This document shows, one piece after another, positions 6,488 to 47,491 of a DNA stretch of 64,000 nt. The notes beneath the pieces were generated by a model. The model saw nothing but the letters and a program-made list of their open reading frames with translations, was not told where the DNA came from and ran no database searches. Both the position numbers and the translations under genes were made by a program. Numbering within the stretch: position 1 is the stretch's first letter; each line of letters begins with the position of its first letter. Source of the DNA: Paenibacillus pabuli (GTDB taxonomy: Bacteria > Bacillota > Bacilli > Paenibacillales > Paenibacillaceae); the NCBI RefSeq assembly GCF_039831995.1, contig NZ_JBDOIO010000004.1:1178001-1242000 (forward strand), read 5' to 3'.

Positions 6488-9135
6488 GTGTGCAGATGTC
6501 GGCGTTTTCGCTTACTCCCGAAGATATGAAATCTATTGAAGATAAGCTTCATATCAAAAAGGAGCTTGTCCAGGCACAGGCTGACGAGATCTTTGCCGTA
6601 TTCAAGGAGCCGCTGTCCGTGGAAGAAGAGTGGGCGCTCAAGTTTGTGTATGCATACAGTCCGCTTCAGGATCTGGCAGATGTACCGGGTGCGCTGTTTT
6701 TAAGTCACGTAAGATCAACTCTGCGAATGCGGCGGGAGGTTCCGTGGGGGCAACGGGTACCGGATAATTTGTTCCTTCATTTTGTGCTTCCCTGCAGGGT
6801 TAATACGGAGAATATCGAGGATTGCCGAGCGATCTTCTACGCAGAACTGGTGGGTCGCATCATGCCGCTCACGATGTCAGACGCGATTCTGGAAGCCAAC
6901 TACTGGTGCCATGAAAAGGCAGTCTATACCGGCAGCGATCTTAGGACGGTTTCACCGCTCACCATGATTCGGAGTGCAAGGGGGCGCTGCGGGGAAGAAT
7001 CAACGCTGGCCGTGACTGCACTGCGAAGTATTGGGATTCCTGCCCGTCAGGTATATACTCCTCGCTGGGCACATTGTGATGACAATCATGCCTGGGTGGA
7101 AGCGTGGGCTGACGGAACATGGTATTATATCGGCGCTTGTGAACCGGAGGCCAGGCTGAACCAGGGATGGTTTACGCCACCTGCCCGCCGGTCGATGTTG
7201 ATGAATACAAGAGTGCTTGGCAGCTATCGTGGTCCGGAGGATGTAACACTGGCAACAGAATGGTATACCGAGCTGAATCTTTTGGAGAACTACGCTCCAA
7301 CAAAGGAGCTGACTGTATCGGTCAAGGATCTGGCCGGAGTTCCAGTGAAGGGGACTTCTGTGCGATTTGAACTGTATAACATGGCCGAATTCTATCCGAT
7401 TGCAGAGTTATTGACGGATGAGAACGGAGAAGTGGTCTTCAAGACGGGATATGGTGCTCTGCTTATCCGGGCGGTATTTCAGGGACGGTGGCGGGAGCAT
7501 AAGGTCACGGTTGACACAACAGACCGATTGGAACTTGTGCTGGATCTGCAAAGTCAACCTGTGCAAGAGAGCGGAGTAGTTGATTTCGACATGGTTCCTC
7601 CGCCTGAGACGCAGGGTGAGGAGCTCCCTGCATTGACAGAGGAAGCTGAGTCGCTGCATCAGCAGCGTTTGTCGGAGGGGACGGAAGTCCGTACTGCGTT
7701 TGAAGCCACGTTTATAACTCATAAGGAGAGCACGGATCTATCTCGGCAGCTAGGCCTTCCGGAGGCTAGGGTATGGGACGTCATGCAGAAATCGCGCGGA
7801 AATGGCCACGAAATCGCCGCGTTTCTCAGGGAAAGCTCTCCAGAGCACGGGGAGTGGCCGTTACTGCTGCTGGAGTCGCTGAATAGTAAGGATTTGATTG
7901 ACACGTTCCGTCCCGTACTACAGGAGCATTTAACTTATTCGCTTCCTCTGCGCGGTATGATCCCGGATACCTTGTTTATTCCCTATGTGTTATGTCCTCG
8001 CGTTGCATTTGAGATGCTTGGGCCGTACAGGGAACAATTCCAGGCAGCCTTTGCTTCAGATGAGAGGGATGCCATGGTGAAAGAGCCTTCACTTCTTGTT
8101 ACAGCAATCAAGGAGAAGTTTATTCATTCGGAGGATCTGCCCAATCTGAAAGGAAAGGGTACAGCGGCAGGGACTTATCGGTTAATGGCCGGGGATGAGG
8201 AATCGCTGGCAATCCTATTTGTTTCCATCTGTCGCAGTATTGGCGTTCCTTCCCGTCTGCATCCAAGTGAACGCAAGCCGCAGTATTGGCAGAATGGGTC
8301 CTGGATCTTCGCGGATCTTGGCAATGAGGAAAAGGTGAAGCTCCGAATGGGAACCATTCGTCTTGTGCAAAACGAGGCAGGAGCAAACGTGCCGGAGGCT
8401 TCCTACTATGAGAACATTTCCATTGCCCGGCTTGTTCAGGGGAAATACGTGACTTTGCATTTCCCTTATAAAGAGACGAAGCTGTTTGCCGAGCCTCTGC
8501 CAGCTGAGGAAGGGTCCTATCGAATGACGACAGGCATACGATTGAAAAATGGCACGGTAAAAGCTCGTTTTACCTATTTTAAGTTGAATGAAGGGGAAGA
8601 GGCTTGTGTTGACGTAACCTTCCGCAGCGCCGATGAGGAAATTCCTGTCCTTGGAACGGTGGATAAGCACGTGGAACTGCGATGGAACGACGGAAGCATA
8701 GCTACACTAGAGAATAGCGTTGGAACGGCAGCGGGCATGCTTCTTTCCTGGATTGAACCGGAGCGAGAACCGACCATACATTTGCTGAAAGAACTTGCTG
8801 ACCTGAGGAAAGAATTGGTGGAGCGGAATGTACCGATTGTATTGCTTACTGGCTCTGCTGGTACAGGAAAATCATTGCAGAGCAAACAGCTGGAGATGCT
8901 GCCGTCACAAGTCCGGTTAGGCGAGGACGAGGCTGCCTCATTGCCTGAAGTGTTCCGCAGCTCTGGAGCGACAGAGTCAGGTTATCCCCATCTTGTCGTC
9001 CTGGATGAAGCTTATCGGATCCGTTATATTTCATCAGGATACCGGATTGGTGCCGTGAAGGAAGCCATTCAGGTAAGTTCGCTGCTGACCGGACAGCGCA
9101 GTGATGCAATCGGGCATGAAGGAGGCAGCCTATGA
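6484..9135 (+). CDS. Large protein with two transglutaminase-like domains and a C-terminal thioredoxin-like region
   Basis: This 883-residue protein starts at ATG 6484 and overlaps the preceding stop; an upstream in-frame ATG at 6436 lies inside the previous gene. Residues of about 60-240 form a transglutaminase/papain-like domain with Cys at about 169 (GRCGEES) and His at about 202 (DDNHAWVE). The usual third-residue region reads YIGACEPE. Next is a small beta-sandwich near 280-345 resembling carboxypeptidase regulatory domains. A second, degenerate transglutaminase-like copy (about 490-620) retains 'SICRSIGVPSRL' but not the clear Cys/His pair. The last 100 residues look thioredoxin-like and contain GSAGTGKS at 790-797, which matches the Walker A pattern. 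There is no signal peptide. It is the third operon gene, and its stop overlaps the GH18 start. A role in cleaving peptide- or amide-linked glycans is possible but unproven. Confidence 0.75.
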   Translation: MSVQMSAFSLTPEDMKSIEDKLHIKKELVQAQADEIFAVFKEPLSVEEEWALKFVYAYSPLQDLADVPGALFLSHVRSTLRMRREVPWGQRVPDNLFLHFVLPCRVNTENIEDCRAIFYAELVGRIMPLTMSDAILEANYWCHEKAVYTGSDLRTVSPLTMIRSARGRCGEESTLAVTALRSIGIPARQVYTPRWAHCDDNHAWVEAWADGTWYYIGACEPEARLNQGWFTPPARRSMLMNTRVLGSYRGPEDVTLATEWYTELNLLENYAPTKELTVSVKDLAGVPVKGTSVRFELYNMAEFYPIAELLTDENGEVVFKTGYGALLIRAVFQGRWREHKVTVDTTDRLELVLDLQSQPVQESGVVDFDMVPPPETQGEELPALTEEAESLHQQRLSEGTEVRTAFEATFITHKESTDLSRQLGLPEARVWDVMQKSRGNGHEIAAFLRESSPEHGEWPLLLLESLNSKDLIDTFRPVLQEHLTYSLPLRGMIPDTLFIPYVLCPRVAFEMLGPYREQFQAAFASDERDAMVKEPSLLVTAIKEKFIHSEDLPNLKGKGTAAGTYRLMAGDEESLAILFVSICRSIGVPSRLHPSERKPQYWQNGSWIFADLGNEEKVKLRMGTIRLVQNEAGANVPEASYYENISIARLVQGKYVTLHFPYKETKLFAEPLPAEEGSYRMTTGIRLKNGTVKARFTYFKLNEGEEACVDVTFRSADEEIPVLGTVDKHVELRWNDGSIATLENSVGTAAGMLLSWIEPEREPTIHLLKELADLRKELVERNVPIVLLTGSAGTGKSLQSKQLEMLPSQVRLGEDEAASLPEVFRSSGATESGYPHLVVLDEAYRIRYISSGYRIGAVKEAIQVSSLLTGQRSDAIGHEGGSL

Positions 9136-43357: not shown

Positions 43358-45025
43358 ATGGAAATGTTTACGATGCTGCTGGGGTTGTTTGAGCGTGCGG
43401 CGCTGCTGATTATTTTTTTATTCTTTTTATCGAGGGTACCTCGTTTTAGACAGATTTTGCAGAAAGGGAAACTAAGGCCTCAGGAATATGTGGCGGTCAC
43501 GCTTTTATTTTGTGCTTTTGCGATCTTTGGCACCTATACTGGGATTAATGTGGAAGGCTCTTTGGTGAATGTGCGGATCATCGCCGTGTTGTCCGGTGGT
43601 ATTTTGTTTGGAGCACCTGTAGGGATTATTACGGGGATTGTATCGGGAGTACATCGTTATTTGATTGATATGGATGGGGTTACGGCGATTCCGTGTCTCA
43701 TTACGAGTATTATTGCCGGTCTGGTGTCGGGTTACATTCACAAGTATACGCCGAAGTCGAAGCGGTGGATGGTCGGTATTGCGGCCGGGATGATCTGTGA
43801 AGCGCTCACGATGCTGCTGATCCTGCTATATTCCTATCCGGACCCACTGGGTGCTGACATTGTATCCAGGATTGCATTGCCGATGATTTTGGGTGAGGTC
43901 AATATTGGACTAATCGTGCTGCTGGTGCAGAGTGTGGAAGGGGAAAAGGAAATGATTGCAGCACGCCAGGCGAAACTTGCACTGGAAATTGCGAACAAAA
44001 CCCTGCCCTATTTCCGTTCTATCGATGAGGATTCCCTGCGGACCATCTGCCGCATTATACAGGAGGATATCCAGGCCGACGCTGTTGCCATTACAGATAC
44101 CCGCAATGTACTGGCCTATGTTGGATTCGGGGAAGAACGATATCACATCGGCAATGAGATTATTAGCGAGATGACGAAGCAGACGATCTCCAGTGGGGAG
44201 ATTACCATCAGTAATGATGTGACGGATGAGAAAACGCCGGACATTCATTCCCTGCTGATTATTCCGCTCAAGGAGCGGAGCGAGGTCACGGGAGCATTGA
44301 AGATTTATTACCGTAAAGCCTATAAAATTACGTATCCGCTGCAAACGATGGCTGTGGGACTATCGCAAATTATTTCCACTCAGATGGAAGTATCCCGGGT
44401 CGAAGAGATTAAGGCAGCCGCCAACAAAGCGGAACTGCGGGCATTGCAGACGACCATTCATCCTCATTTTCTCTTCAATGCGCTGAATGCGATTGCTTCT
44501 TCGATTCGAACGAAGCCTGACCGGGCGCGGGAGTTGATTGTGAATCTGTCGGGATACATGCGCTACAATCTGGAACTGTCGGATGAGCTGATCGATATTC
44601 ATAAGGAGCTGGAGCAGGTCCGCAATTATGTGGAGATTGAGAAAGCCCGTTATGGCAGCAGGCTTAACGTGATCTATGAGATTGATGAGGTGGCTGTGCA
44701 TATTCCAAGTCTGGTCATTCAGCCGCTTGTTGAAAATGCCATCATTCATGGTGTCCTCAAGGTCAAAGGACCTGGAACCGTGCGGATTCGGGTACAGGAT
44801 TACCCTGACTTTGTACGAATAGGAGTCAGTGATACCGGTGCCGGTATTGACCCGGATATCATTGAGAAGGTGTATCGAGACCGAATGCCGGGGAATCAGA
44901 TTGGTTTATATAATGTTCATCGGCGGGTGAAGCTCATATATGGACAAGGCGTAACGATTACGCGGTTGGAGCAAGGAACCGATATTATTTTTGACGTACC
45001 CAAAGGAGATGTCGTGACAAGGTGA
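43358..45025 (+). CDS. lytS: LytS/YehU-type sensor histidine kinase
   Basis: A 555-residue membrane kinase. The N-terminal 5TMR-LYT domain has five to six helices (about 5-190) with '[18 protein letters not shown]'. A GAF-like domain follows (about 220-350), then the His-kinase region with [12 protein letters not shown] (His near 371) and the ATPase N/G boxes ('[10 protein letters not shown]', '[10 protein letters not shown]'). The start is ATG 43358, 11 bases after GGAGG. lytT begins eight bases after the stop. Relatives YpdA and BtsS of E. coli respond to pyruvate. The gene is followed by a YhjX-like transporter, the E. coli YpdAB target. Confidence 0.92.
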
Positions 45026-45032
45026 TTGGTCT

Positions 45033-45824
45033 ATGAGAGCTCTTATCGTGGAAGATGAGATTCCTGCAAGTGAAGAATTGAATTATTTGATCCAGGAACA
45101 TAGTCAGATTGAAGTGGTTGCCTGCCTCGAAGATGGACTAGATGTGCTGAAGTTTTTGCAGGAGCAGGAAGTCGACGTTATTTTTCTCGATATTAACATT
45201 CCATCGCTGGACGGCATGATGCTGGCCCATCATATTGGGAAATTCGCCAGTAAGCCTTACATCGTCTTTACGACAGCTTATAAGGAGCATGCAGCTGAAG
45301 CGTTCGAGCTGGAAGCCTTTGACTACATTCTGAAGCCTTATGATGAGAAACGAATTGCAGCCATGCTGCTTAAGCTGGAGAATGCCTTCAAACGCGATCA
45401 TGCAGGAGAGGCAGTGGATGAACATGGACAGGCCCAAGTGACGGATGAAGCCTCCATGCAAGGATCACAGGCTAAAGCTTCTGTCGCAGGGACTGGAATA
45501 CGAATTAATCTGCTGCGCAACGACAACATTATCGTGACGGATACGGCCGACATCTATTATGCGGAAGCACAGGAGAAAGTAACGAAGGTGTATACCAAAA
45601 ATGGTGAGTTTACGATGCCGGTGAGCATTACGGATTTTCATGGCCGCCTTCCGCAGGAGTCTTTTTTTCGCTGCCACCGTTCTTACCTGGTCAATCTGTC
45701 TCAAATACGTGAAATTGTACCCTGGTTTAACAATACGTACCTGCTCCGTCTACGCGATCTGGAAGCTGAAGTGCCGGTAAGCCGGGGCAAGGTCAAGGAA
45801 TTTAGGCAGCTCATGCGCATATAG
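45033..45824 (+). CDS. lytT: LytTR-family response regulator
   Basis: A 263-residue regulator. The receiver domain (1-120) has the phosphoacceptor Asp in 'VIFLDINIPSLDG' (near 55) and Lys in 'ILKPYDE'. An Ala/Gln-rich linker (about 128-155) leads to a LytTR DNA-binding domain (about 158-260) with 'FFRCHRSYLVNLSQI'. It is paired with lytS, with translation starts only bases apart. Its 3' end contains the first of three 21-bp-spaced repeats that probably bind this protein. Confidence 0.93.
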   Translation: MRALIVEDEIPASEELNYLIQEHSQIEVVACLEDGLDVLKFLQEQEVDVIFLDINIPSLDGMMLAHHIGKFASKPYIVFTTAYKEHAAEAFELEAFDYILKPYDEKRIAAMLLKLENAFKRDHAGEAVDEHGQAQVTDEASMQGSQAKASVAGTGIRINLLRNDNIIVTDTADIYYAEAQEKVTKVYTKNGEFTMPVSITDFHGRLPQESFFRCHRSYLVNLSQIREIVPWFNNTYLLRLRDLEAEVPVSRGKVKEFRQLMRI

Positions 45825-45856
45825 AGGCATTTCATTCCGTATTTGATGCAACTCAT
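45805..45856 (+). promoter_or_regulatory. Three 21-bp-spaced LytTR operator repeats upstream of the transporter gene
   Basis: GGCAGCTCAT (45805-45814), GGCATTTCAT (45826-45835) and TGCAACTCAT (45847-45856) are direct repeats with exactly 11-bp spacers. The middle one is identical, as I recall it, to the E. coli YpdB half-site at yhjX, which also uses an 11-bp spacer. The first copy overlaps the lytT coding end. Confidence 0.75.
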
Positions 45857-45865
45857 GCTTAAATC

Positions 45866-45894
45866 GGTGTTATGAATCCCCTTTCATGTATGAT
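45866..45894 (+). promoter_or_regulatory. Candidate activator-dependent promoter of the YhjX-like gene
   Basis: TATGAT (45889-45894) is a good -10. The position 17 bp upstream is GGTGTT, a poor -35. The last LytTR repeat ends 10 bp before it, as expected for an activator-dependent promoter. Confidence 0.5.
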
Positions 45895-45983: not shown

Positions 45984-47273
45984 ATGAAAGCAGCTATTTC
46001 ATCAGCACCTAATTCAGCATCGACATCCATAAAAATGAATCGGCGGCTTATTGTACTGGGAACAATTATTGTACAAATGGGCCTTGGAACCATCTACACC
46101 TGGAGTTTATTTAATCAACCGCTGTCTGACCATTTCGGATGGGACGTCAGCTCGGTCGCGATAACTTTTTCAATCACAAGTTTTGCACTCGCATTTGCTA
46201 CGCTGTTTGCAGGCCGGCTGCAGGAACGATGGGGACTTCAGCGCCTGATTCGTATAGCGGGGATTGTGCTTGGTCTGGGACTTGTGCTCAGTTCTCAAGT
46301 TACTTCATTAACCCTGCTCTATATATTGGCAGGATTCGTGGTTGGATTCGCAGACGGGGCCGCTTATATTACGTCGTTATCCAACCTGATTAAATGGTTC
46401 CCGGAACGCAAAGGTCTCATCTCGGGTATTTCCGTTGGCGCATTTGGTACAGGAAGTCTGTTGTTTAAATATGTGAACTCGGCATTGATTGGCGCTGTAG
46501 GGCCTGCGCAGGCATTTATGTATTGGGGCATCATCGTCCTGGTCCTGATTGTGGCCGGATCTTTCCTGATTCGCGAAGCCGTTGTTCGTGAACAGGCTCC
46601 CGTTAGCAAGACCGAAGGGGCGAAGCAGGAAGTTACCCGTCATCAGTACACGGTAAAAGAAATGCTTCGGACGAAAGAAGCTTATATGTTGTTCGTTATT
46701 TTCTTCACGGCATGTATGAGCGGATTGTATCTGATCGGTATCGTCAAAGACATCGGCGTGCAGCTGGCAGGTCTTGACGTCGCTACCGCCGCGAATGCAG
46801 TAGCGATGGTTGCGATCTTCAATACGGCAGGTCGGATCATCCTGGGGGCCTTGTCGGACAAAGTAGGCCGGATGAAAGTCATTGCCGGGGCACTGCTGGT
46901 TACGGCAGCAGCGGTCATGACGCTAAGCCTCGTTCCACTGACCTACGGCGTGTTCTTCGCCTGCGTGGCTGCAGTTGCGTTCTGTTTCGGTGGTAACATT
47001 ACCGTCTTTCCGGCGATTGTCGCGGATTACTTCGGACTGAAAAATCAGAGCAAAAACTATGGTGTCATCTATCAGGGATTTGGAATTGGTGCCCTGGCCG
47101 GGTCCTTTATCAGTGCTCTGCTGGGCGGATTCCATCTGACGTTTATCGTTATTGCGATACTCTGTGCTGTCTCCCTGCTGCTCGCCTTGATGATTACACC
47201 TCCGGGTCAAAATCGTCGTACGCGTCAGCACGAAGGTCAAATGAGTCTCAAACCTTCATCCCGGGCAAGCTGA
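45984..47273 (+). CDS. MFS transporter of the oxalate/formate antiporter family (YhjX-like)
   Basis: A 429-residue protein with 12 predicted helices. 'LGTIYTWSLFNQPLSDHFGW', 'GFADGAAYITSLSNLIKWFPERKGLISG' and 'IYQGFGIGALAGSF' follow E. coli YhjX and other OFA transporters. The start is ATG 45984 with GGGGAG eight bases upstream; the frame runs on to 45936 but lacks a site. It is downstream of lytST with repeats that match the E. coli YpdB operator, so it probably handles pyruvate or a related carboxylate. Confidence 0.88.
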   Translation: MKAAISSAPNSASTSIKMNRRLIVLGTIIVQMGLGTIYTWSLFNQPLSDHFGWDVSSVAITFSITSFALAFATLFAGRLQERWGLQRLIRIAGIVLGLGLVLSSQVTSLTLLYILAGFVVGFADGAAYITSLSNLIKWFPERKGLISGISVGAFGTGSLLFKYVNSALIGAVGPAQAFMYWGIIVLVLIVAGSFLIREAVVREQAPVSKTEGAKQEVTRHQYTVKEMLRTKEAYMLFVIFFTACMSGLYLIGIVKDIGVQLAGLDVATAANAVAMVAIFNTAGRIILGALSDKVGRMKVIAGALLVTAAAVMTLSLVPLTYGVFFACVAAVAFCFGGNITVFPAIVADYFGLKNQSKNYGVIYQGFGIGALAGSFISALLGGFHLTFIVIAILCAVSLLLALMITPPGQNRRTRQHEGQMSLKPSSRAS

Positions 47274-47332
47274 GTTTATTCCGATTTCAAATATTTCGTG
47301 GTAGTTCATTTATATGTTAAATAAAAGTATGG

Positions 47333-47358
47333 CGGTCTCTGCGGAGGCCGTTTTTTTT
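47333..47358 (+). terminator. Rho-independent terminator of the transporter gene
   Basis: CGGTCTC (47333-47339) pairs with GAGGCCG (47344-47350) with one wobble, loop TGCG, followed by eight T. Confidence 0.9.
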
Positions 47359-47491
47359 GGATAGGGATAGGCAAAACTGCTGCCTGTACTTGGATTGCTC
47401 GGTGGCTGCGTGCATTGTATCCTGTGCTTCTGCTATACTCTAGGTGAATTGAAGGGCAACAACATCTGTTCGGATCTGGAGGAGGATTTCA

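Follow-up and report, generated by a model that had tools for sequence, protein, structure and literature searches.

The YpdA/YpdB-yhjX system of Escherichia coli and the YpdB site have already been published (PMC4847170, PMC5552118, and PMC6545925), and the accessible parts of these papers describe the pyruvate-response unit in gammaproteobacteria. Two other LytS/LytTR systems are comparable. BtsS/BtsR-btsT of E. coli has the same architecture and senses pyruvate, and according to the accessible text its target, btsT, is CstA-like (PMC5552118). In Bacillus subtilis, the LytST pair answers pyruvate and its target is the LrgAB-type PftAB; the LytT operator, as given in the available text, consists of two 13-nt boxes lying 8 nt apart, a 21-bp period, and has already been likened to the YpdB site (PMC5626966). 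Judged by titles, no paper on the YpdAB-YhjX system in Paenibacillus was found in the open literature.

Here, the unit is found in Bacillota, in one block and with its operator, geometry, and target intact, within a window of Paenibacillus pabuli DNA (the whole stretch of 64,000 nucleotides that was analyzed). We consider it very likely that this is a unit of the YpdAB-YhjX (PyrSR) type, in which sensor, regulator, operator, and target transporter are contiguous and in which the regulator is predicted to activate the transporter in response to a monocarboxylate, most likely pyruvate. The control site is nearly identical between Paenibacillus and the very distant E. coli, and the contiguous unit offers a compact test bed for activation by LytTR proteins.

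Kinase, regulator, and transporter genes

The earlier note placed a LytS kinase, a LytTR regulator, and a YhjX homolog next to each other, as the E. coli gene set gathered in one cluster, and the comparisons agreed with this (Table 1). With YpdA and YpdB of E. coli K-12 as references (PyrS and PyrR in current RefSeq records), the kinase was 61.8% identical to YpdA over 550 aligned positions versus 29% to BtsS, and the regulator was 57.8% identical to YpdB versus 31% to BtsR. The C-terminal part of the LytTR domain of the regulator was nearly identical to that of YpdB. The transporter, whose start was picked by eye from a preceding ribosome-binding-like sequence, was 46.9% identical to YhjX of E. 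coli strain 120899. The three genes are contiguous, whereas yhjX in E. coli does not adjoin ypdAB. The GAF domain of the kinase matched Pfam only at the cut-off. Genome-wide, LytTR is matched four times and 5TM-LYT twice, with the regulator and the kinase of the window by far the best of each; among the matches listed (the best 120 of 1,942), the closest regulator was that of Paenibacillus xylanexedens, with 95% identity. A second, weaker 5TM-5TMR_LYT match was found elsewhere in the genome, in a 382-amino-acid frame (G000:C5:388304-388741). On the 3' side of the transporter gene, an inverted repeat rich in G+C, with T's after it (47330-47365), looks by eye like a terminator.

Table 1. Features of the kinase-regulator-transporter locus, in window coordinates
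Feature	Position	Strand	Remarks
YpdA/PyrS-type LytS sensor histidine kinase	43358..45025	+	Pfam 5TM-5TMR_LYT, GAF, His_kinase, HATPase_c
YpdB/PyrR-type LytTR response regulator	45033..45824	+	Pfam Response_reg and LytTR
Half-site 0, GGCAGCTCAT	45805..45814	+	Lies in the final R-Q-L-M codons of the regulator gene
Half-site A, 10-mer GGCATTTCAT from 45826; with conserved tail, GGCATTTCATTCC	45826..45838	+	10-mer identical to E. coli site A
Half-site B, 10-mer TGCAACTCAT from 45847; with tail, TGCAACTCATGCT	45847..45859	+	Conserved at +21
-10-like hexamer TATGAT	45889..45894	+	32 bp past half-site B
YhjX-like OFA/monocarboxylate MFS transporter	45984..47273	+	NF049980 (L-lactate MFS transporter), 406.8 bits, cut-off 320

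In a tree of the kinases, one set of 14 rows (99/99) comprised the Paenibacillaceae proteins (99/99), the kinase of the window among them, and five proteobacterial YpdA rows (99/99); BtsS, on a long branch, fell outside this set. In the MFS tree, the Bacillota-type and the E. coli-type transporters formed separate clades. Membership in the two other pyruvate systems was also considered. LytST-PftAB (LrgAB) was rejected because the target is an MFS protein and not of the LrgA/LrgB type. The two LrgA matches of the genome are on another contig (G000:C5), and the one of these loci that was scanned (L151) had no operator. BtsSR-BtsT was rejected on the identities, 29% and 31% against 62% and 58% to YpdA/YpdB.

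Operator and promoter

The three direct repeats described by the earlier note, starting at 45805, 45826, and 45847 with 11-bp spacers, are all there, and in the window sequence the period of the 10-mers is 21 bp. As also stated there, the middle copy, GGCATTTCAT, equals the E. coli YpdB half-site and the spacer is the same, in agreement with the accessible text of PMC4847170. The spacing of GGCATTTCAT-N11-GGCATTTCAT is that of E. coli, and TGCAACTCAT of half-site B differs from GGCATTTCAT in 3 of 10 letters. Over 34 bp, the E. coli operator and that of the window have 25 identical positions, and the third register is occupied in both. When the 64 kb were scanned with a 34-column matrix made from relatives, with the window's own clade left out, the pair at 45826 scored 41.4 and the overlapping pair at 45805 scored 22.9; the next best place in the window reached 6.6. 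Across 18 non-redundant promoters, including one that was misregistered (L037), half-site A and its tail hardly varied.

The arrangement is conserved in the family, although the loci are related and the following counts therefore overstate independence. The kinase, regulator, and transporter genes occurred together in all 30 same-genus loci, the window's own included, and in 29 of them the operator began 1 bp past the regulator stop; in the thirtieth (L037), a degenerate operator occupied that position. Among 295 genomes of the family, the 21-bp pair pattern with at most one mismatch gave 103 matches in 98 genomes, and the reversed pattern gave none. A regulator search at E <= 1e-60 listed at least 80 of the 295 genomes, a lower bound because genomes with a verified cluster (e.g., G064 and G065) are missing from the list. 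For 69 of these 80, the distance from the end of the regulator match to the beginning of the pattern was 6 to 48 bp; in the other 11, the operator was recognized by the matrix directly past the stop, with scores from 17.6 to 41.6, some of them weak (G030, 17.6; a genome outside the list, G009, had 16.3). The earlier note had wanted the repeats sought in relatives that share the gene order, where their absence would have spoken against it; the operator was present behind the regulator gene in all 80 listed genomes. When further regions were fetched for a match to the pattern, the kinase and the transporter flanked it in 23 of 30 (13 of 20 and 10 of 10), and the remaining 7 were without any of the three genes. 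Fourteen of the 34 matches without an adjoining listed regulator were inspected, and 7 of these were full clusters while 7 were not. None of the three genes had a relative at L101 (the same place as L096), L106, L107, L116, L054, L055, or L094.

The promoter that follows is as the earlier note proposed, a -10 box with a poor -35: the hexamer 17 bp upstream of TATGAT is GGTGTT, which is not -35-like. The distance to the -10 was examined in 72 operator loci, of which 7 are proteobacterial and 65 belong to Paenibacillaceae, many of these being close relatives (L037 and L193 are the same place, and the lower pair was set by hand for both Klebsiella loci). In 70 of them, half-site B was followed at 32 or 33 bp by a -10-like hexamer. 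In 67 of the 72, the hexamer at offset 32 or 33 was the best among offsets 20 to 44. The box of E. coli yhjX is at 33 bp, that of the window at 32 bp. The exceptions to a clear -10 at this distance were L185, with TAATCT at 33 bp, and L194, with an extra repeat. No recurring -35-like box was seen among the 38 loci examined. A nearly fixed -10 register together with no recurring -35 is the pattern expected of an activator that replaces the -35 contact.

We infer the following course of events from these features. On sensing a small monocarboxylate outside the cell, pyruvate being the likeliest, the membrane kinase would phosphorylate the LytTR regulator, which would then bind both half-sites of the direct repeat, A and B, on the same face of the helix. 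Bound 32 to 33 bp before the -10 box, the regulator would be placed to substitute for the missing -35 element and so turn on the monocarboxylate transporter. The weaker third half-site, 21 bp upstream in the last codons of the regulator, may provide a cooperative contact.

At L194 (G005:C7), two tandem copies of the 21-bp block GAATTCAGGTTATTTCATTCC just past the regulator stop give three non-coding half-sites, as if the arrays grew by entire 21-bp units.

Weight of the half-sites and nature of the signal

Direct repeats of this kind could be chance or codon-bias matches without a regulatory role, and single half-sites are indeed no commoner in the window than chance predicts (GGCATTTCAT with at most two mismatches gave 88 matches versus 86 +/- 9 expected), so that the signal lies in the 21-bp pairing. 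Weak pairs are common and uninformative as well, since the genome scan with at most two mismatches gave 72 matches versus 8 for the reversed pattern. However, zero-mismatch pairs of NGCANYTCAT at 21 bp were found nowhere in the 6.95-Mb genome but at the operator, as two overlapping pairs. The operator lies 3' of the regulator in every one of the 80 listed genomes, its -10 register is almost fixed, and it was recovered across phyla (see below), whereas 30 LrgA loci were without it (best score, 8.0). A chance origin is thus extremely improbable. The question is more evenly balanced for the first copy, which, as the earlier note had it, is within the coding end of the regulator gene, its 10-mer corresponding to the codons for R-Q-L-M. 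Possibly only A and B matter and this copy is a by-product of conserved codons, a reading to which we give an even chance. In its favor, the protein sequence fixes all but two of the ten positions of half-site 0, the exceptions being the third base of the Arg codon and that of the Leu codon. Moreover, among 43 loci arranged in this way, half-site 0 matched NGCANYTCAT in 21 and was changed in the other 22, with variants including GGCAAATTAT, GGCAGTTGAT, GGCAGATTAT, and GGCAGATCAT, while A and B stayed recognizable. In nine Paenibacillaceae loci with the operator 30 to 43 bp past the stop, the 10-mer at -21 ranked only 3rd to 65th of 150 offsets. Against it, the same 10-mer was better conserved in these nine loci (1.45 bits) than the upstream flank (0.71) or the spacer (1.03), bits that overstate independence because the loci are related. 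In addition, the -21 register is non-coding in enterobacteria, where, among 150 offsets, it came top in E. coli, Enterobacter, and both Klebsiella loci (with A-B taken as the lower pair in Klebsiella, by analogy with E. coli) and second in Serratia. A purely coding nature of the third copy was set aside after this non-coding counterpart had been found.

The best reading at present is that two half-sites, A and B, form the operator core; graded binding by three sites, as suggested in the earlier note, is a guess. We propose more tentatively, as somewhat less probable than its contrary, that a three-register 21-bp array is native to YpdB-type regulators, E. coli included (its upstream cGTCATTCAT-TCC being missing from the AB-BA model), with the third site placed in the last codons of the regulator in Paenibacillaceae; the stable code and -10 distance would then permit exchange of operator and transporter, as in Serratia proteamaculans, where kinase and regulator are of the enterobacterial type and the transporter behind a matching operator is of the Bacillota type, and as in Acetoanaerobium. 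On this proposal, a third half-site is expected in the yhjX promoter of E. coli, which has already been studied. For that promoter, the accessible text of PMC4847170 names sites A and B, the word "third" is absent from its main text, and the oligonucleotide used there for SPR includes the upstream element.

In two E. coli strains (L178 and L179), half-sites 0 and A were changed at the first base only (C to A and G to T, respectively); the first base of the half-sites also varies in Paenibacillus. In S. proteamaculans (L123:7963-8045), four half-site-like 10-mers, all non-coding, start at 7963, 7994, 8015, and 8036, with spacings of 31, 21, and 21, upstream of a transporter of the Bacillota type.

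Regarding the signal, R72, R99, and C110 of the BtsS pyruvate site align with R73, R100, and C113 of the kinase and are conserved in YpdA too, and the position of BtsS S113 is a T both in the kinase of the window and in YpdA. In the accessible text of PMC10653868, S113T in BtsS prevents induction, which counts against the pyruvate reading, though YpdA shares the T. Since three of the four pyruvate residues are conserved and the fourth is changed as in YpdA, pyruvate appears, from the alignment, to be the likeliest signal. The signal and the cargo could instead be lactate or another monocarboxylate: the transporter scored above the cut-off of the L-lactate MFS family NF049980, and E. coli yhjX bears the same product name in its RefSeq record. 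Nevertheless, the kinase is the ortholog of YpdA, which responds to pyruvate according to the accessible part of PMC4847170, and it has the YpdA version of the pyruvate-site residues. We therefore regard lactate or another monocarboxylate as rather unlikely and retain pyruvate as the likelier signal.

Operator outside Paenibacillaceae

In samples of the class and of the phylum, the pattern was found in 22 of 250 and 8 of 299 genomes, respectively, versus one match and none for the reversed pattern. All zero-mismatch matches were from the family; those outside it (6 and 5 genomes) had one mismatch each, and at the 11 such loci fetched (L083 to L087, L089 to L093, and L095), no relative of a system gene was found within about 1.5 kb. 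Near-21-bp repeats resembling GCATTTCATACCCTNAAAACC were noticed in another Bacillota family (L113, L114, and L115, in G458 and G341), at places where no gene related to the kinase, regulator, or transporter is close by.

The cross-phylum test was made on records of plasmid and E. coli collections, some of them chromosome-sized, with a matrix trained on 16 Paenibacillaceae operators. Upstream of yhjX-type genes, it scored 48.5 in Enterobacter hormaechei, 40.2 in E. coli, 38.3 in Klebsiella aerogenes, 35.6 in S. proteamaculans, 31.5 in Klebsiella pneumoniae, and 27.7 in Plesiomonas shigelloides, and the best of 200 shuffles of each of these six upstream regions did not exceed 8.2. The operator of Aeromonas caviae scored 22.4. 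A record labeled Klebsiella oxytoca was not counted separately because its operator is the same as that of E. coli. A gammaproteobacterial survey (PMC5552118), in its accessible text, reports that some species carry the YpdB motif and that none was found in S. marcescens or A. hydrophila. Salinivibrio proteolyticus has a linked kinase-regulator-transporter cluster with no operator recognizable by the matrix (best, -7.6), and none was found by the matrix at two Priestia plasmid transporters without a kinase or regulator nearby. Ilyobacter (-9.8) and Fusobacterium (-8.9) have the kinase and regulator and no linked MFS gene.

Acetoanaerobium noterae (L128:7313-9651) has a YpdAB-related kinase (43%) and regulator (42%) and no linked MFS gene. 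Its regulator stop is directly followed by a 21-bp repeat in degenerate form (score, 2.1). TATAAT comes at 32 bp, as counted by eye, then a 165-amino-acid frame without a Pfam match and a CstA-family transporter gene; perhaps this is the same operator, serving a target of the BtsT/CstA type. In the trees, the Serratia transporter grouped with Bacillota (100/100) and the Serratia kinase with E. coli (97/96), so that a kinase of the enterobacterial type is combined in Serratia with a transporter of the Bacillota type. Transfer, in either direction, is likely. The unit of the window suggests that operator and transporter could move between phyla without rewiring.

In E. coli strain DX6 (L181), the yhjX promoter is interrupted inside half-site B and an IS1 transposase gene is annotated next to it, as if an IS1 element had inserted there.
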